DNA of 33,556 bases from IMG/VR virus record IMGVR_UViG_3300025853_000338, positions 1-33,556 of that record. One strand, 5' to 3'. Within the stretch, counting starts at the first letter, position 1. The number at the start of each line of letters is the position of its first letter. Both the position numbers and the translations under genes were made by a program. This DNA is from a virus. Below, in pieces: positions 4,154 through 27,351 of the stretch. The notes under the pieces are model-generated. The model saw only the letters and a program-made list of their open reading frames with translations. It searched no databases and was not told the origin of the DNA.

Positions 4154-6199
4154 CTAAACGTCCTTTGTGTCAAGCCAATTCGGACCTATCTTAGCTTCTA
4201 ATAGTAGTGGCACATTCATCTTTACGTTGTAGGCTTGCTCAATTAGTGAATCCAAACATTCATTTATGTCTGTAATTATTTGTAATACTTGATCTTTCTC
4301 ATTAGGATGTACGTCTATAACCATTGAGTCATGTACACTATTCACTATGCATGACTGAAAACTATTTAGTCTAGCGTCCATCTCGTTGAGTACGACAGGT
4401 ACTACATCACCCGTAGCAAAGCCCTGCACAGGGTAGTTCTTGATCATCGTGAAGTGTGACGGTGTACCGTTAGGCCTACGTGTAACCTCAGGGAAAGCAT
4501 ACTGTCTGCCACTGACGTTGGTGATCTTGTTGAACCTGATGGCCTCATCACCTAGCTTCTTGTGCCACTCTGCTATACCTTTGTACTTCTTATTGAAGTG
4601 CTCGTAGTATGCAGCCTCTGCCTTACTTCTACCATATCCAGTAGCACCGAAGAGTGGAGCAAAGGTGTGAGCCTTAGCGTCCTGCCTACCTGTTGGTTGA
4701 CCTGCATCACTGATAACCTTAGCAGTGTATGCGTGTACGTCAAACCCTGTGTTGATCTCTTCAATAGCCACCTTGTCCTGTGACAGGAACGCTGCGACAC
4801 GGAACTCAAGCTGTGCAAAGTCAGCCTCAATTATGGAGCCTTCGGGAAACCTAGACACGAACACTCGTTTAATAGGGAAGGTGCCGCCTCTTGGCATGTT
4901 TTGCATGTTGGGATTCCGTCCAGAAAATCTACCTGTATTGGTGATATGCTGGGTAAGGGTAACATGGAGTAGTCCGTCTTGTTTAGTGTGGGTGGAAATA
5001 CCATCGACAAAGCTAGACAGATAACTACTAATAGCAGAAAGCCTTTTAACATCTTCAAGGAAGTCCTTTGCTGATTCCATGTTGTGATTGTTAGCTGTTG
5101 CAATAAGCGCATCTAGTTTATCCTTTCCTGTAGCGAAGCCGTTGTAGCTAATCCATTTACGTGCGGGTGGTGGGTTGAACCCTAAGCCAGCCATCTCTTT
5201 AGTCTCTTTAAGTCTGTAGCCTTTACCGCCACAGTCAGGACAGGCATTACCTTTCTTAAAAGGTGTACCGTCTTTCTTAGTCTTAAATGTTTTACCTGTA
5301 CCATTACATGTACCACAGTGTAGCGCAACTGTCTTACGCATCAAGTCACTGTTAGCTTCTATGATACTCTTGTAGTCTGCTGCATTGTCAGCGTACTCAA
5401 ACAAGTCAGACCATTCTTTTTTGTTGTGTATCCTGCGACTGAAGATAACCTGAGATAGTTGCTCTGGACTGTTCAAGTTTATAGGGGTAGCCCCCATTAA
5501 CGCTCGCACTTTTGTAGACAGTCTCTGCTCAATATCGGATTTCTCTGCTTGGAACTCAGTCCTGACGTGTTGGAGGGCGGCTCTATCCACCCTGATTCCT
5601 GACATGTACATTCGTGCCAAAGTGCGGCAGGTGTTGAAGGTAATACCTTTGATACGGTTGAGGGAATCTGAGGTAGGCTCTGCGTAGTCTCTTTCGGCTG
5701 CTTCGTACAGTTCACCAGTAGTACGCAAGTCACACTCAAGGTAGTGACTAAGTTTATCCAACGGGATTTCATTTGTATTGTATCCTTTCTTGTAGTACTC
5801 TTTGAGTGTGTCATCCTTCTGATGATCTAGGTTCCTACGGATAGCGCACTGCTCTAGGCTTAGCGGTTGCTTCTGCCCACGCTGTAAGATATACTCAGCG
5901 AGCATGGTGTCATAGATGTCACCGTCATACTTGAAACCTGTAGCCCACAGCCATGACAAGTCATACTGTAAGTTGTGACCTATAAGTAGGGTTGTAGAGT
6001 CTAACCATCTCTGTAGTTTGCATTTGTTTTTCGTAGTGTCGTTACGCTCTGAGTGATCAAAGCAAAGCAGATCCTTATCGCCTGTTTCTAAGCACAACAC
6101 GCCTACCTCTGTAAGAGTATTGGCAGGTTCAAACGGATCGTTAAAGATCTTACCGTTACGTAATGTTATACTATTCTCTACGTCTAATACTCGTTTCAT
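4154..6199 (-). CDS. polA: Family-A DNA polymerase with DnaJ-like zinc module
   Basis: 681-aa replicative polymerase. The 3'-5' exonuclease domain has DxE (D6, E8), HNLQYD (N76, D80) and YxxxD (Y153, D157). A zinc module with paired CxxCxGxG motifs (C295/C298 and C320/C323) lies at about 290-330, before the palm. Polymerase motif A is EADFAQLEFR (D460, E465), motif B RQDAKAHTFAPLFG (R505, K509, F513), motif C VHDS (H623, D624). A DnaJ-central-domain insertion in this enzyme is the described hallmark of HMO-2011-type phages. No 5'-3' exonuclease domain is present. Its ATG overlaps the helicase stop (TAATG), so both are translated together. Confidence 0.95.
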   Translation of the reverse strand: MKRVLDVENSITLRNGKIFNDPFEPANTLTEVGVLCLETGDKDLLCFDHSERNDTTKNKCKLQRWLDSTTLLIGHNLQYDLSWLWATGFKYDGDIYDTMLAEYILQRGQKQPLSLEQCAIRRNLDHQKDDTLKEYYKKGYNTNEIPLDKLSHYLECDLRTTGELYEAAERDYAEPTSDSLNRIKGITFNTCRTLARMYMSGIRVDRAALQHVRTEFQAEKSDIEQRLSTKVRALMGATPINLNSPEQLSQVIFSRRIHNKKEWSDLFEYADNAADYKSIIEANSDLMRKTVALHCGTCNGTGKTFKTKKDGTPFKKGNACPDCGGKGYRLKETKEMAGLGFNPPPARKWISYNGFATGKDKLDALIATANNHNMESAKDFLEDVKRLSAISSYLSSFVDGISTHTKQDGLLHVTLTQHITNTGRFSGRNPNMQNMPRGGTFPIKRVFVSRFPEGSIIEADFAQLEFRVAAFLSQDKVAIEEINTGFDVHAYTAKVISDAGQPTGRQDAKAHTFAPLFGATGYGRSKAEAAYYEHFNKKYKGIAEWHKKLGDEAIRFNKITNVSGRQYAFPEVTRRPNGTPSHFTMIKNYPVQGFATGDVVPVVLNEMDARLNSFQSCIVNSVHDSMVIDVHPNEKDQVLQIITDINECLDSLIEQAYNVKMNVPLLLEAKIGPNWLDTKDV

Positions 6200-8025: not shown

Positions 8026-8681
8026 ACGCTCTCCCTTAATGCTTTCCACGATACGGGGAACAGCTTAGACATCTCGTAGTTAATATCCCAAGCTACATAC
8101 TGAGTCTCTGCTTGTGTGTCACCCTTACAACGTAAGTTACACATGTCAGCAAAGGCATCTAAGCTACCTGACCAGTACCACTCAGTCATCATACTCTGTG
8201 GCAGTACCATACGTGCTTGCTCAGGACATACATTTTCTAACAACAACCTTTGGTAATCTTTTAAAGCCCTATGATGCAAGTCGCTAATAATACGATCAGC
8301 ATCCTCATCATACCACTCGCCACTACTACCTTGCTTCTTATCTTCGCTGCGCCCACGCCAAGATCTAGGCACATAGAACTCAGGCTCCTTGTCTACGTAT
8401 CGTCTTGATACTTCATTCCAACGTAGAAACTTATGCTTGACTAACTGTCTAGCTACAAAGACTGGTGCCTTGATGTGGAAACTAGCAAAGCAATGCCCAA
8501 AGGGGCTGATGTGTTTGTGCTCTGCAAGATAACGAATAAGCTTAGCGTCCTTGTCTTTCAACTTAGGTGGCCCCCATACATCACTCGTATCCATCTCACT
8601 CTGCTTACCAAAGCTTACACGAGCAGCATTAGCTACTGTCAAGTCAGTACCCATGTGATCTATGTATGTTACTTTAATCAA
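8022..8681 (-). CDS. thyX: FAD-dependent thymidylate synthase ThyX
   Basis: Makes dTMP from dUMP with methylene-tetrahydrofolate, FAD and NADPH. The 219-aa product has the ThyX signature at residues 82-95, KHKFLRWNEVSRRY, keeping the RHR-x7-S spacing but with lysines at both arginine positions. The downstream SGSLDAFADMCNLR region matches the substrate-binding part. A TTG start at 8681 is chosen: GGGAG lies seven bases upstream, and starting at the first ATG (residue 10) would lose the first conserved strand. It overlaps the GIY-YIG gene by 8 bases. With nrdJ and mazG it forms the nucleotide-supply set of this phage. Confidence 0.92.
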   Translation of the reverse strand: MIKVTYIDHMGTDLTVANAARVSFGKQSEMDTSDVWGPPKLKDKDAKLIRYLAEHKHISPFGHCFASFHIKAPVFVARQLVKHKFLRWNEVSRRYVDKEPEFYVPRSWRGRSEDKKQGSSGEWYDEDADRIISDLHHRALKDYQRLLLENVCPEQARMVLPQSMMTEWYWSGSLDAFADMCNLRCKGDTQAETQYVAWDINYEMSKLFPVSWKALRESV

Positions 8682-9189
8682 GTGTCAACTCCCGTAATAC
8701 TTCTAGTGCCTGATCTTCTGTTATCTTAAACCATTCACCTTTACGTTCACCTTTACGCTCAGCTACCTTGTGTGCGTCACGCTCAGCCTTGTTACGATCA
8801 TCAAAGTAAACTGAATGGATCAACTCATAGTCACGCATAGGTGAGCTTGTTTGATAGCCATTGAGTCTATCCTCTGCGTCTACTGCCTTGCCAATCTTAA
8901 CCCAGTCAGGCCAAGCCTTGTTACGGATAGCGTACACGTAACCCTCAAGGATTTGTTTGTCTTTCTGTAAGGCACTGAACGCTGCGTCACCAAAAGATTT
9001 GTAGTGACCTGGTTTATACAACGGGTGTTTCTTCGGAATGTATTTACCGTTTACAAACATACGCTGTGGATTGTTTCTTGGGTTGCTCTTGTTGTTACGA
9101 TCCTTTTGTATGTCAGAAGTGTTACCTTCTTGATAATACTTTGGCTTACCTGTTCTAGGATTTACACTAAGTTCTTTCAGTAAAGTCAT
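8674..9189 (-). CDS. GIY-YIG nuclease-like protein (T5orf172 type)
   Basis: 171 aa. The C-terminal half carries a GIY-YIG-like core: GYVYAIRN (83-90) for the GIY strand, WVKIGKA (97-102) for the YIG strand, the catalytic-type arginine in DRLNGYQTSSP (R108) and a glutamate in KAERDAH (E136). This layout fits the T5orf172/MUG113 branch of the GIY-YIG superfamily. The N-terminal 80 residues are basic and asparagine-rich, perhaps for DNA binding. Its role may be DNA cleavage or repair. It may be a domesticated rather than homing nuclease because it sits in tight operon register. Strong ribosome-binding site AAAGGAG. Confidence 0.78.
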   Translation of the reverse strand: MTLLKELSVNPRTGKPKYYQEGNTSDIQKDRNNKSNPRNNPQRMFVNGKYIPKKHPLYKPGHYKSFGDAAFSALQKDKQILEGYVYAIRNKAWPDWVKIGKAVDAEDRLNGYQTSSPMRDYELIHSVYFDDRNKAERDAHKVAERKGERKGEWFKITEDQALEVLRELTLD

Positions 9190-9289: not shown

Positions 9290-10109
9290 AGGGTTTGTCT
9301 TGTTCTTCATAGGCCAGCTTCCTCAGTTCATCTAAGTCCTCAGGCCTCTCGTACTTCAAGTCATCCTGTAAGTACAACGCATAGCTAGGTAGACCTGTCC
9401 ACATCTCTATCTCTTTCTTGTAGCTCAACGTCTTCTGTAAGGCATCAGGGTCAAGCGCAACGATAACCTTTGTTGCGTTGTCTTGTATATACTCTAAGTG
9501 TTTATCTGTCAAGCTAGTCCCAAGTATAGCAAACCCAACCGAATTGGGTAGCTTCTTAGCCACAGTGATAGCACTGATGACATCCTCTACCACAACGTAG
9601 ACACTGTTACGGTCAGACATAGAGCGTACATAATAGTCTGCACTACCACCATACCTGTACCACTTTGGTATAGCACCATCAAGAGCACGTCCAATAGCAT
9701 CAACAACAGTACCATTGTGTACGATAGGAAACACCGCACGTTTATCTTTCACGTCATACATTAATGACTCACCAGCTAAGACAGGCCATCGCTGCTTGAA
9801 CCTACGCATGGTAGCATTGCCCTCTGTAGTGATATGTTCTGGATAAACAAAGGGCTGTAACTCTTTGTTATCACTGGATGATTCTAGTAATGGTTTCACG
9901 AAGTAACTCTCCAACTCTGCTCGTGTCATGTCTGTGTCGAACCTACCGCCAACATCACAGGCTAACTTGAAGCAGTTGTACTTCAAGACACCCATCTCCA
10001 TCGATGCAGTAAAAGTATTCTTGCTGTTGCAAAACGGACAGTCACCACGATGCGGCCCGTTAATTGCCATCTCTTCTGCGTACTGCCTGTGTTGCTGCCA
10101 GATAGTCAT
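9282..10109 (-). CDS. DNA primase (zinc-binding + TOPRIM)
   Basis: 275 aa, short for a primase. The N-terminal zinc-binding domain has C24, C27, C46 and C51. The TOPRIM domain shows the glutamate in YVVVEDVISA (E175) and DxD in VIVALDPDA (D220, D222). It synthesises RNA primers for the lagging strand and should act with the separate helicase at 6199-7458; the two are fused in T7 gp4 but split here. The ATG overlaps the integrase stop (ATGA) and has AGGAG five to six bases upstream. The C-terminal part after residue 240 is acidic and may be the helicase contact, which is inference. Confidence 0.88.
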   Translation of the reverse strand: MTIWQQHRQYAEEMAINGPHRGDCPFCNSKNTFTASMEMGVLKYNCFKLACDVGGRFDTDMTRAELESYFVKPLLESSSDNKELQPFVYPEHITTEGNATMRRFKQRWPVLAGESLMYDVKDKRAVFPIVHNGTVVDAIGRALDGAIPKWYRYGGSADYYVRSMSDRNSVYVVVEDVISAITVAKKLPNSVGFAILGTSLTDKHLEYIQDNATKVIVALDPDALQKTLSYKKEIEMWTGLPSYALYLQDDLKYERPEDLDELRKLAYEEQDKPYG

Positions 10110-11035
10110 TCTTTCTCCTTGAATGCACTGCGCTGGGCTAGTGCTTCTGATGCACCAGTAAAGGTGTGCTTGATGTAAGGCGTAAGGCTTTGGATGTTGA
10201 CGTGTCCACTGACTTGTTTGATCTGCGTGATGTCAACACCTGCCTCTACCATCTCAGTGATAGCAGTACGGCGCATGTCCATAGCGGTTAACTCTTTAGG
10301 TAGACCTGCCTGTTCTTTGATCTGATTAACATACATGTGTAGCTTAGCCTTAGCGTAAGGGCTATGCACGTTGTTGATCTTCTTTGTTCGGGGTGCTACG
10401 TATTCCTGAAAGCCAAACCGTTCTTTCTGCTCTACAAGAATACTCCTAAGCCCATCACTGATAGGTAAGTGTACGTCTGCACCTCGCTTGCTCTGCGTTA
10501 AGTCCATGCGGCTGTTCTCTAGATCTAATGCACCCCATGTAAGTAAACGCATGTCACCTACACGCTGGCCCCACTCATATGCCATGTGTACAATCAACCC
10601 AATAGAGTATCCTGTCCACTCACTGTAAGCGGTAAGCAGGAAAGCCTTTACTTGCTCAGGCTCCCACGTAACCTTGCGAGGTGGGTTAGGTACACGATCC
10701 ATGTGCGGTACTGGATTGACTATACGTATGCCTAGACCTATGGCTTTGTTAAGTACGATGGACAGTATAGCCGCAAGCTTGTTAGCTCTAGGTATACCAT
10801 TCTTGATCCACTCATCATACGCAGCTTCTACCTGTGTAGTGGACATGTTCCTAAGTAGAACACCACCTAGATCCCTACGCACAACTTTTAAGTTAAGGTA
10901 GTACTCCTTCTGTGACGTAGGTGAGAGGTTACGGTAAGACTTACTATCAAGGTAGTAGTCAATCAAAGTGCTAAGCCTTGAGTCTTCTGTAGGTTTCTTC
11001 ACCATTTCTTTCTTGTCTTCCAGTATACCCAGCAT
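10106..11035 (-). CDS. int: Tyrosine-recombinase integrase
   Basis: 309 aa. An N-terminal SAM-like core-binding domain (about 20-110) precedes the catalytic domain: R158 (WGQRVGDMRLL), K183 (QSKRGA), box II R255 (MDMRRT), H278 (SGHVN) and the nucleophile Y287 (TPYIKHT). The first histidine of the usual HxxR box is methionine (M252), an odd substitution. Such enzymes integrate phage DNA at an attachment site, often a tRNA gene; no attP could be identified. The gene is embedded in the replication operon upstream of primase rather than in a lysogeny module; no repressor is recognised. A second possible start is at 11005. Confidence 0.88.
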   Translation of the reverse strand: MLGILEDKKEMVKKPTEDSRLSTLIDYYLDSKSYRNLSPTSQKEYYLNLKVVRRDLGGVLLRNMSTTQVEAAYDEWIKNGIPRANKLAAILSIVLNKAIGLGIRIVNPVPHMDRVPNPPRKVTWEPEQVKAFLLTAYSEWTGYSIGLIVHMAYEWGQRVGDMRLLTWGALDLENSRMDLTQSKRGADVHLPISDGLRSILVEQKERFGFQEYVAPRTKKINNVHSPYAKAKLHMYVNQIKEQAGLPKELTAMDMRRTAITEMVEAGVDITQIKQVSGHVNIQSLTPYIKHTFTGASEALAQRSAFKEKE

Positions 11036-15507: not shown

Positions 15508-15533
15508 AAGTGTCACCTCACTGTTGAATGTAT

Positions 15534-15565
15534 TTAGTAGTGACACAGCCAAAACCATATGTCAA
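15534..15565 (-). promoter_or_regulatory. Candidate leftward promoter of the replication block
   Basis: Minus-strand TTGACA (15565-15560) lies upstream of the first leftward gene. The best -10 nearby, TACTAA (15539-15534), is 20 bases away, longer than ideal, so either the promoter is weak or it needs an activator. It is framed by the inverted repeat at 15542-15604. Confidence 0.4.
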
Positions 15566-15604
15566 GCATAAGCTGCGGTTGGCCGCAGTTATCCTGGCTG
15601 TGTC
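15542..15604. repeat. Nested inverted repeats over the leftward promoter
   Basis: An outer perfect 10-bp pair, GACACAGCCA (15542-15551) and TGGCTGTGTC (15595-15604), encloses a perfect 6-bp hairpin CTGCGG-TTGG-CCGCAG (15573-15588). The -35 element lies between the hairpin and the left outer arm. This is a strong candidate operator, or a folded leader if transcription begins further right. Confidence 0.65.
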
Positions 15605-15610
15605 CAAACA

Positions 15611-15630
15611 AAAGACATCCAAAGACATCC
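15611..15630. repeat. 10-bp tandem duplication
   Basis: AAAGACATCC is repeated exactly twice in tandem. It lies just outside the nested inverted repeat; a possible half of a protein-binding array. Confidence 0.5.
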
Positions 15631-16690: not shown

Positions 16691-16719
16691 TTGACATGTA
16701 ACTACTTATATGTTACTAT
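16691..16719 (+). promoter_or_regulatory. Rightward sigma-70-like promoter
   Basis: Perfect -35 TTGACA (16691-16696), 17-base spacer, -10 TACTAT (16714-16719). The spacer end TATATGT is shared with the capsid promoter at 27359. This is the best candidate to start the rightward virion transcript, giving a leader of roughly 170 bases before the gene at 16896. Confidence 0.6.
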
Positions 16720-17445: not shown

Positions 17446-17721
17446 ATGAGTGATCTTAAACTCCCTGTAGCACTTGTAGCAGCGATGGCTATACAACTTG
17501 TAGCTGCTGTGTGGTGGGTATCCAAACAGGCCCACACTATTGAGGTACTACAGCAAGACGTTGTAGATATGAAGACTTATATGAACTCTATGGACATAGA
17601 CTTAGAGGCTTTGATAGAGTTCGCTACGTTTACAGAGAACAGGTGGGCTGAAGAGTACAGCAATGATTTGACTTACGAGAGATCCTTTGGTACTAAGGAA
17701 CCTGTGATTGAAATCGACTAG
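17446..17721 (+). CDS. Membrane-anchored small protein, 91 aa
   Basis: ATG at 17446 is preferred over an upstream TTG. Product begins MSDLKLPVALVAAMAIQLVA, one transmembrane helix (about 5-24) with a WWVSKQ boundary, then a long acidic helix (HTIEVLQQDVVDMKTYMNSM) and a C-terminal acidic tail. The N-in, single-helix plus coiled-coil layout resembles small spanin-like or tail-associated membrane proteins seen near phage virion genes; a lysis role is possible but unproven. Confidence 0.6.
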   Translation: MSDLKLPVALVAAMAIQLVAAVWWVSKQAHTIEVLQQDVVDMKTYMNSMDIDLEALIEFATFTENRWAEEYSNDLTYERSFGTKEPVIEID

Positions 17722-19119: not shown

Positions 19120-19479
19120 ATGCCTGTACTTAATAATGGATCTAAGTTTGTAACACACGCTACTGCTCTGACAGGTACATCTGACACGGATTGTTACGTT
19201 GTACCTGATCACTTTTCATCACACCTAGAGCACTTGATGATTACAAACAGTGATTCTAGTAATAGAAACTACACTATTAAGTACTACGAGAAGGCAGCGA
19301 ATACTACGTTTACTTTGTTTACAGCACATGCAGTTGCAGGTAAAGGTGCTGAATCTGTGTTTACTGTAGACAAACCTTTGTTCTTACACGCTGAAGACAA
19401 GATAATTGTAGCAGCGGGTACAGCAGATACGCTTACCGTTATTGTAGCTGCAGAGGAGTTCTTTGATCCTAATCGCTAA
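19120..19479 (+). CDS. Probable virion protein, 119 aa
   Basis: Begins MPVLNNGSKFVTHATALTGT and has an alternating polar/hydrophobic beta pattern throughout (HLEHLMITNSD, YTIKYYEKAAN, DKIIVAAGTADTLTVIVA), like a small jelly-roll or fibre-type domain. Small beta-rich proteins in this position are often head-decoration or neck components. No family can be named. Confidence 0.55.
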   Translation: MPVLNNGSKFVTHATALTGTSDTDCYVVPDHFSSHLEHLMITNSDSSNRNYTIKYYEKAANTTFTLFTAHAVAGKGAESVFTVDKPLFLHAEDKIIVAAGTADTLTVIVAAEEFFDPNR

Positions 19480-19534
19480 TTGCATAACGGGATTGCAAAC
19501 TTGTATGTAGTACGCTAACATAAAATATGATATA

Positions 19535-19569
19535 ACTATCTCCACAGCACATAAGCAAAAGGAGATAGT
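19535..19569 (+). promoter_or_regulatory. Hairpin sequestering the DUF1127 ribosome-binding site
   Basis: ACTATCTCC (19535-19543) is perfectly complementary to GGAGATAGT (19561-19569), with a 17-base loop; the right arm contains the Shine-Dalgarno of the ATG at 19573. A weak promoter-like pair lies upstream (TTGCAA 19493-19498, 17 bases, TAACAT 19516-19521). Translation of the next gene may therefore be switched by melting or by a ligand. Confidence 0.6.
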
Positions 19570-19572
19570 GCA

Positions 19573-19713
19573 ATGTTTAAACGTATATTAAAGCGGTTCC
19601 AAGAGAACCAACAACGCAGAGCAGACTATTGGATACTCATGAATTTGAGTGACAAAGAACTGCACGATATGGGGATCAGTCGTGGCGAAGTCAGGCAAAA
19701 AGTCTACGGTTAA
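19573..19713 (+). CDS. DUF1127 small protein
   Basis: 46 aa. The C-terminal half LSDKELHDMGISRGEV (residues 25-40), preceded by YW, is the diagnostic DUF1127 pattern. The N terminus is basic and helical (FKRILKRFQENQQRRAD). DUF1127 proteins are abundant in alphaproteobacteria; CcaF1 of Rhodobacter sphaeroides is an RNA-binding protein affecting small-RNA maturation and mRNA turnover. A phage copy might act on host RNA. It has a consensus AAAGGAGA site inside a hairpin and overlaps the next gene by 32 bases. The gap before it breaks the otherwise packed operon, so it looks like a host-derived insertion (moron). Confidence 0.82.
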   Translation: MFKRILKRFQENQQRRADYWILMNLSDKELHDMGISRGEVRQKVYG

Positions 19714-19867
19714 TGCAGCGGGTAATTATACTAAGCCTACTATGCGTAAGCGCTTGGTTGCTTCCGTCAAAGCTGGCGGGAAAGGTGGAAAGCCCGGACA
19801 ATGGAGCGCCAGGAAAGCCCAAATGGTTGCTAAGCAGTACAAAGCTAAGGGCGGGGGTTATAAGTAA
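19682..19867 (+). CDS. Small basic protein, 61 aa, GTG start
   Basis: GTG at 19682 (with GGGGA seven bases upstream) begins VAKSGKKSTVNAAGNYTKPT; an earlier TTG would lie deeper in the DUF1127 gene. The body continues with RKRLVASVKAGGKGGKPGQW and SARKAQMVAKQYKAKGGGYK. I recall nearly the same protein in many marine phages, always small and without known function. Basic, glycine-rich composition suggests nucleic-acid binding or packaging association. Confidence 0.62.
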   Translation: MAKSGKKSTVNAAGNYTKPTMRKRLVASVKAGGKGGKPGQWSARKAQMVAKQYKAKGGGYK

Positions 19868-26481: not shown

Positions 26482-27351
26482 ATGCCTGAACTAGCAGAAG
26501 TAGAAACTAAAAAGACAGCAGGTCTTGTAAATCCAAATAGACCTACCCCTCTAGAAGATAAGATTAAAAAAGAGGAAGAAGAACTAGAAGCTTTAATGAA
26601 AGCTCGTACTGAAGAAGTAGAGCAAAAAGTAGAAGAACCAGAAGCTAAACCTGAGAAAGAAGAACTATCAGGTGAAGAGCGTACATATAAGAAACGCTAC
26701 AGTGATTTACGTAGTCATCTTAACAAGCAAGCAGAAGAGTTAAAAGAACTTAAAGCCCAGCTTGAAAACGCTCAGAAGACAGGTAAGGTACGTGCTCCTA
26801 CTTCAGATGAAAGTATTGATGCTTGGGCTAAGAAGTACCCTGAGATTGCTGGCATTGTAGAAACAATTGCTGAAAAGAAAGCCCAAGAAAAGTTTAAGTA
26901 TGCTGATGAACGTCTGCAGCAGATTGACAAGATCAACGCAGATGCCCAGCGCACTAAAGCAGAGAATGAAATCCGTGCTATGCATGGAGACTTTGATGAT
27001 CTACGTGGGAGTGATGACTTCCATGATTGGGCAGCAGAACAACCCAAGTGGGTGCAGGATGCACTCTATGAGAATCAAGATGATCCACAATCAGTGATCC
27101 GTGTTATTGATCTATTCAAAGTAGATAAAGGTATGGACACTAAAGGAAGACGGCAAAACTCTAAGGATGCTGCTTCTCAAGTAAGAACTAAACGTACTAC
27201 CAAACCAGACAATGACAACCCTGCAGGACATCTGCGTGAGTCTGAAGTTCAACGTATGAGTACACAAGAGTACGAAACCAAGTCAGACGAAATCATGGAA
27301 GCTATCCGCAGCGGTAAGTTTATTTATGATGTTTCTGGTGGAGCACGTTAA
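26482..27351 (+). CDS. Capsid scaffolding protein
   Basis: 289 aa, highly charged and helical. The N-terminal half is glutamate/lysine-rich coiled coil (KIKKEEEELEALMKARTEEV), the middle has KKAQEKFKYADERLQQI, and the C-terminal third is basic (KTKRTTKPDNDNPAGHL) before a helix ending in GKFIYDVSGGAR. This acidic-coil plus basic C-terminal hook, placed just before the major capsid gene, is the classic scaffold layout. It should guide procapsid assembly and then leave. AAAGGA precedes the ATG. Confidence 0.8.
   Translation: MPELAEVETKKTAGLVNPNRPTPLEDKIKKEEEELEALMKARTEEVEQKVEEPEAKPEKEELSGEERTYKKRYSDLRSHLNKQAEELKELKAQLENAQKTGKVRAPTSDESIDAWAKKYPEIAGIVETIAEKKAQEKFKYADERLQQIDKINADAQRTKAENEIRAMHGDFDDLRGSDDFHDWAAEQPKWVQDALYENQDDPQSVIRVIDLFKVDKGMDTKGRRQNSKDAASQVRTKRTTKPDNDNPAGHLRESEVQRMSTQEYETKSDEIMEAIRSGKFIYDVSGGAR

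Follow-up and report, generated by a model that had tools for sequence, protein, structure and literature searches.

A hairpin over the ribosome-binding site of a DUF1127 gene in HMO-2011-type Roseobacter phages as a probable lock against read-through RNA

How can a phage gene be translated when a hairpin covers its ribosome-binding site, and why would relatives of that phage keep such a hairpin? These questions are raised by a small gene in IMG/VR record IMGVR_UViG_3300025853_000338, which was analysed as one stretch of 33,556 nt (hereafter the window). The packaging region of the window (terminase and portal genes) gave DNA matches to 26 phage records, with CRP-603 as the best match (73.6% identity over 62% of the query) and CRP-2, CRP-13, CRP-207 and HMO-2011 also among the leaders; on this similarity the record is classed as a 33.6-kb contig of an HMO-2011-type Roseobacter phage. 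The gene of interest (19573-19713, + strand) encodes a protein of 46 aa. Our preferred answer, which we hold to be probable and which rests on folding and comparative modelling, is that the hairpin is a lock against RNA reading through from upstream genes and is bypassed by the gene's own promoter.

The initial annotation of this locus had described a DUF1127 gene with a perfect 9-bp stem at its Shine-Dalgarno (SD) sequence, set in a gap of an otherwise packed operon, and all three elements were recovered. The protein matches PF06568 at 28.5 bits, over the Pfam curated cut-off of 23.3, and the gap measures 93 nt (19480-19572). The stem stands exactly where it had been placed, with the 5' arm ACTATCTCC at 19535-19543 and the 3' arm GGAGATAGT at 19561-19569 (both + strand), joined by a 17-nt loop. 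The SD, read from the sequence as AAGGAG (19559-19564, + strand), has its core inside the 3' arm, and most of it is paired by the stem. Judged within the window, the stem is only moderately unusual. A total of 26 short inverted repeats are reported there, this one included; its fold has a z-score of -3.64, and 2 of 200 shuffles folded equally well. The cost of opening the DUF1127 start region, 13.8 kcal/mol, ranks second among 34 start regions in the window, a ranking in which two of the 34 tested positions are non-start codons; the start region at 17446 has the higher cost of 15.1 kcal/mol. What lifts the hairpin above chance is its conservation, with matched changes between relatives.

Relatives were gathered by several routes. 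A DUF1127 profile seeded from ten ORFs found, among the matches listed, 78 copies in 119 sequences, which comprise the window with its own locus (L001), eight stretches of phage records, and loci collected by similarity to the terminase or neighbouring genes. Two ORFs (L087, L055) were dropped as their start codon was not found, and L001, which is the window itself, and its near copy L091 were left out, leaving 74. Three of these had their upstream part cut off and two had no TAWAACT box; the remaining 69, together with four named isolates, gave 73. The sets of 69 and 73 both required a TAWAACT or TATAAT anchor. Energies and pairing were computed on 69 distinct sequences out of these 73, found without use of the promoter pattern described below, after identical stretches and those with fewer than 40 nt upstream had been dropped. 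A larger set of 118 distinct sequences has the promoter spacing built in.

Covariation was assessed by swapping arms, since MAFFT alignment misplaced the SD in some rows. The 5' arms of the 118 sequences fall into 27 different cores. When each core was represented once (n=27), native arm pairs averaged -12.46 kcal/mol against -7.87 kcal/mol for permuted pairs, and none of 20,000 permutations was as low as the native value (permuted minimum -9.84). Across 97 arm pairs, a median of 13.5% of foreign 3' arms paired equally well, because many of them share GGAG, and in one locus (L130) the native pair was worse than swapped ones. Individual cases illustrate the matched change. Between the window and locus L093, which are identical up to TATAACTA, a T to C change in one arm is answered by an A to G change in the other, and in CRP-3 and CRP-212 a C to T change of the -10 element is accompanied by a matching change in the 3' arm. 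In CRP-603, CRP-2, L035 and L054, bases of the start codon are paired instead of, or besides, the SD. Thus the arms differ between phages and are mostly matched within each phage, and matched change has preserved the hairpin across the relatives. The initial annotation had named conservation of the stem along with the gene as a check on its reading, and both proved to be conserved, with compensating changes in the stem.

The gap that holds the hairpin also carries a promoter-like module. It consists of a box of consensus GCATAACGGGnWTGCA (with TATTCC on its right side in some relatives) followed after 43-46 nt by TATAACTA, an arrangement present in all 73 scored sequences. The distance, counted from the A of ACGGG, was 43 nt in 29 sequences, 44 in 42, 45 in one and 46 in one (n=73); the box was scanned by trying 17-nt starts from 30 to 75 nt upstream of an anchor, for which the TATAACT or TAAAACT nearest the gene was taken, or TATAAT in four isolates. 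In the window the box is GCATAACGGGATTGCA (19482-19497, + strand), about -62 to -47 from the predicted transcription start; going by its constant position and the column profile, it is a probable activator site or upstream promoter element. The -10-like element is TGaTATAACTA (19528-19538, + strand), of which TATAACTA, or TATAACT(A), is nearly invariant across the columns profiled for the spacing-44 class (36 distinct sequences). Against the promoter reading stands the C that ends this -10, an unusual base there for sigma-70. Four isolates (CRP-3, CRP-212, CRP-235 and CRP-738) have TATAAT in its place, which suggests a sigma-70 -10 element; 50 of the 118 relatives have an extended TG before the -10, and a -35 to go with TATAACTA could not be recognised in the gap.

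The two parts of the module are individually common and jointly rare. In the window, TATAACTA alone has 3 matches against 2.7 expected and the upstream box alone 3 against 2.0, while the spaced pair has a single match against 0.04 expected. When the viral collection was searched for a pattern made up of box, spacing and TATAACTA alone, at least 120 stretches matched, the locus counts of such scans being lower bounds. In 115 newly fetched loci, among the matches listed, every one of 102 distinct module copies had a DUF1127 gene within 400 nt, and with all loci pooled the count was 118 of 118 distinct copies, again among the matches listed; the 115 pattern loci and those found by similarity overlap, some lying on the same contigs. 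Matches of the pattern in bacterial genomes look like chance, none of the 12 having DUF1127 within 400 nt. One contig of 80 kb (IMGVR_UViG_3300046167_000032; loci L215 and L221) bears two module copies some 55 kb apart, alike at 397 of 400 bases. It is the sole exception to one copy per record, and probably holds more than one genome length.

We also considered whether the module might be a general promoter of these phages, and rejected this reading: of 20 larger records, 12 contained the exact spaced pair, at 13 sites in all, and 11 of the 13 lay just upstream of DUF1127. The other two, one inside the coat gene of CRP-1 and one in CRP-13, resemble each other in sequence and were judged to be chance matches. 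Eight of the 20 records had no exact pair; three of these (L014, L020 and L058) have DUF1127 with a variant box, and were missed by the exact pattern for that reason. A search for the activator that might read the box started from the ORFs of CRP-235 and kept those with counterparts in CRP-603, CRP-3, CRP-345 and the window but none in HMO-2011 or HTVC033P. This left just DUF1127, thymidylate synthase and an ORF of 105 aa. No activator was recognised among them, and no regulator signature was noticed in the 105-aa ORF. Nor was a sigma factor named in the annotation rows of CRP-603, of CRP-345, or of most of CRP-3 and CRP-235, where most rows read 'hypothetical protein'.

Where RNA from this promoter would begin can be estimated from purine conservation. 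A purine stands 13 nt after the first T of TATAACTA in 99 of 118 distinct sequences and one place later in 17 of the remaining 19, so that positions 13 and 14 together account for 116 of 118; a pyrimidine-purine step occurs at position 13 in 97 of 118, and the pyrimidines before +1 may be due in part to the anti-SD arm. On this basis we infer that transcription in the window starts at A19544 (+ strand), which is the first base past the 5' arm of the hairpin. That arm, lying between the -10 and the predicted start, would accordingly be absent from promoter-started RNA.

The edge of pairing falls at the same place in the relatives. In folding of the 69 distinct sequences, pairing with the start region is 0.67 at position 12 and 0.14 one base later, at position 13. 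Of 15.9 start-region bases on average, 10.7 have their partner upstream of +1 and 0.85 in the part from +1 to the SD (n=69). At least four start-region bases are predicted to be paired upstream of +1 in 67 of the 69, and sequence upstream of +1 is the main pairing partner of the start region in 65; for L032 and L058 most of the start-region pairing is with bases downstream of +1. Two isolates place the arm further upstream still. CRP-235 forms a perfect 14-bp stem from a 5' arm that precedes the -10, lying between it and the box, and CRP-738 has, by eye, a 9-of-10 stem with its 5' arm likewise between box and -10. Folded from the -10 onwards, CRP-738 forms no stem over the SD, and with its upstream sequence 8.7 start-region bases pair upstream of +1.

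Folding energies agree with this geometry. Opening the start region was computed to cost a mean of 12.4 kcal/mol (sd 4.3) in read-through RNA against 4.1 kcal/mol in promoter-started RNA, a mean difference of 8.3 kcal/mol (n=69), which fell to 1.9 kcal/mol when the upstream part was shuffled in 12-base blocks. The gain exceeded 3 kcal/mol in 65 of the 69 native sequences, against 25% of draws with shuffled upstream parts, and was below 3 kcal/mol in the other four (L036, L002, which is CRP-603, L058 and L052). The native sequence beat all 30 of its shuffles in 43 of 69 cases and at least 90% of them in 61; CRP-3 and CRP-738 were not outstanding, with 23% and 17% of shuffles giving as large a gain. 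As the 5' end of the RNA was moved from -30 to +13, the probability of the SD being unpaired rose from 0.22 to 0.71 (n=117, one of the 118 having no SD by the rule used), and that of the start codon only from 0.26 to 0.45. In the promoter-started RNA of the window, folding also produced a short alternative helix, GCAC/GTGC (19547-19550 with 19568-19571), which leaves the SD in a loop, has two bases in common with the lock stem and, by eye, recurs in several relatives.

These results can be joined in the following model. The 93-nt gap would serve as a promoter for DUF1127, and probably also for the packaging and capsid genes behind it, made up of the upstream box, probably bound by an activator, and the -10 element TATAACTA, with an extended TG in many relatives. 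RNA started at about 19544 would come without the 5' arm, leaving the SD free and DUF1127 translated. RNA arriving from upstream genes would carry the arm, which would pair with the SD and the neighbouring start region and leave DUF1127 untranslated. Such read-through RNA is to be expected, because a simple consensus scan of the + strand from the preceding gene to the hairpin found no terminator-like site. Its source might be a sigma-70-like site, TTGACA-17-TACTAT with a TG (16691-16719, + strand), which matches 10 of 12 consensus bases; the match means little alone, since such sites are no commoner in the window than in shuffles (26 against 36). The lock would confine the protein to the time at which the promoter is active, most likely late in infection, a timing suggested by the terminase and capsid genes that follow. 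The interpretation put forward at the outset thus survives in part. A ribosome site of a DUF1127 gene closed by a hairpin was borne out; that the gene is off until the hairpin opens was not, as the evidence favours bypass by a promoter predicted to start its RNA past the 5' arm. The proposal of a host-takeover gene found no support either, the position just ahead of terminase and capsid genes suggesting a late gene.

The most serious competitor, which we consider unlikely, would have the gene's own RNA begin with the hairpin, through transcription from an upstream promoter of the form TTGCA-17-TATAAC, the SD then being opened by a protein (possibly DUF1127), by temperature or by some other factor. 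A second TATAAC does stand 14-15 nt upstream of the main one in 65 of 118 relatives, 17 nt from TTGCA in those inspected by eye, and could possibly be a second promoter, whose RNA would carry the arm and be closed; moreover, passages of PMC10253847 report that CcaF1 of Rhodobacter sphaeroides, a DUF1127 relative, binds RNA. However, the upstream copy is weakly conserved and is degenerate in the window (TAACAT, in the region 19516-19538), whereas the downstream copy is nearly invariant. The loop varies widely in sequence and length, and no constant site for a protein was seen in it. In CRP-235 and CRP-738, furthermore, the arm lies upstream of the only -10 visible by eye, and hence outside promoter-started RNA, a placement that fits a lock on read-through RNA and is left unexplained by a switch within the messenger of the gene.

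Position and edge of the arms bear on the other alternatives as well. An extra small hairpin between the arms, seen by eye in L009, L122 and L128 and kept in promoter-started RNA, would suit a 5' stem-loop that guards the messenger from decay and has no part in translation control, but the outer stem, which reaches over the start region, stops at the predicted start and so would lie outside the promoter's own RNA, which makes this reading quite improbable. It is very improbable, in our view, that the repeat serves a regulator as an operator in the DNA and overlaps the SD by accident: it does lie over the promoter, a frequent location for operators, yet a DNA site would be expected to keep both its sequence and its spacing, and here there are 27 arm cores, a variable distance between arms, and the pairing of at least four start-region bases upstream of +1 noted above for nearly all sequences. 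Least probable of all is an RNA thermometer. It would account for an SD-sequestering stem of moderate strength, but the spread of opening costs around their mean (12.4, sd 4.3 kcal/mol) would be unexpected in a tuned element, as would an arm edge that tracks the promoter start.

A lock against read-through RNA that the gene's own promoter bypasses is of a known kind. Passages of PMC3014915 and PMC2988022 describe hairpins over the ribosome-binding sites of the T4 genes e, soc, 49 and I-TevI in longer early RNA, late-promoter RNA without the 5' strand for e and I-TevI, and, for e, a 100-fold effect. The present locus resembles these in having an SD hairpin, here predicted, in a longer upstream RNA, a promoter at the 5' strand whose RNA, from the predicted start, would lack that strand, and a gene lying behind co-directional genes. 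It differs in belonging to the unrelated HMO-2011-type podoviruses, in its target gene, DUF1127, in an arm that two isolates carry ahead of the -10, and in its promoter, which joins an upstream box to TATAACTA in place of the T4 late box TATAAATA. The T4 late promoter is a TATAAATA box read by a gp55-type sigma; the group of the window has TATAACTA or TATAAT instead. Descent from T4 is not suggested, and what is new is the phage group, the promoter module and the target gene. The transposase genes of IS10 and IS50 provide another precedent, in which external read-through RNA folds back over the ribosome site and own-promoter RNA is free. The likeness lies in closed read-through and open own-promoter RNA, and the difference in that IS10 and IS50 are mobile elements whose arms are the end repeats of the element, where here the carrier is a phage.

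Among cellular DUF1127 genes, one of Sinorhizobium meliloti is subject to uORF attenuation, as set out in passages of PMC12218461. Control there too passes through the 5' RNA, with a hairpin that pairs an RBS, but there it is the RBS of the upstream ORF that is paired, and expression is controlled through transcription termination. CcaF1 shares with the phage protein the Pfam domain and small size, and differs, according to PMC10253847, in being a 71-aa cellular gene product expressed from an RpoHI/RpoHII promoter and co-transcribed with the CcsR sRNAs. No Rfam family was matched by the window, a result that may not bear on CcsR. A slight survey of the literature yielded no report of regulation in HMO-2011-type phages or of this lock element, and the main text of one HMO-2011-type genome paper mentions neither DUF1127 nor a promoter.

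The DUF1127 gene itself looks to be under purifying selection, the average pN/pS among relatives' 46-aa genes being 0.35 over the 61 pairs kept (pS 0.1-0.7 and pN < 0.4, a choice that biases the mean low). AlphaFold predicts three helices with a pLDDT of 86.7. In a tblastn search of 50,697 phage records with an E limit of 1, DUF1127 was found in 11, all of them Roseobacter CRP phages (the weakest two matches at E 0.4), and was absent from HMO-2011 and the pelagiphages; by this distribution it is a mark of the Roseobacter members of the HMO-2011-type phages. As to function, passages of PMC11707872 state that pulldowns of the Salmonella DUF1127 protein YjiS gave no evidence of RNA association. 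We offer as a tentative and rather doubtful extension that in a widespread group of marine phages the lock, evolved apart from T4, confines DUF1127 to late infection through a new activator-dependent late promoter, with a protein that would alter host RNA processing (RNase E or sRNA maturation) as the phage turns to virion production and be harmful early.

The results suggest that read-through locks arose outside T4 too, and that this one has persisted across wide divergence through matched changes, an argument that DUF1127 made at the wrong time comes at a cost to the phage. Module and hairpin together give HMO-2011-type phages a testable promoter and control element, and phages that apparently time DUF1127 tightly offer a way to address the question of what DUF1127 does.

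Some further observations concern the neighbourhood of the gene and the rest of the window. A Lys-rich ORF with a possible GTG start (19682-19867) overlaps the end of DUF1127 in another frame, and its translation might be coupled to that of DUF1127. Relatives of the gene directly before DUF1127 (19120-19479) were found in 29 viral loci (L090-L118), six of which have a DUF1127 match in the fetched stretch, so this gene appears to be present in other phage contexts too. An integrase-family match (phrog_1) lies at 10106-11035, and integrases are annotated as well in the CRP phage and HMO-2011 records viewed. The DNA polymerase gene (4154-6199) also matches a Q-like antitermination family (phrog_127) at residues 289-336 of its product; in HMO-2011 the annotation gives the polymerase a DnaJ zinc domain. 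An ORF at 8674-9189, which adjoins the thymidylate synthase gene, weakly matches a homing endonuclease (phrog_18411), and a 28-nt imperfect inverted repeat (79%) lies between divergent operons at 15524-15622. Finally, in CRP-235 (L255) a putative toxin-activating lysine acyltransferase is annotated at 26783-27205, among tail and lysis genes.
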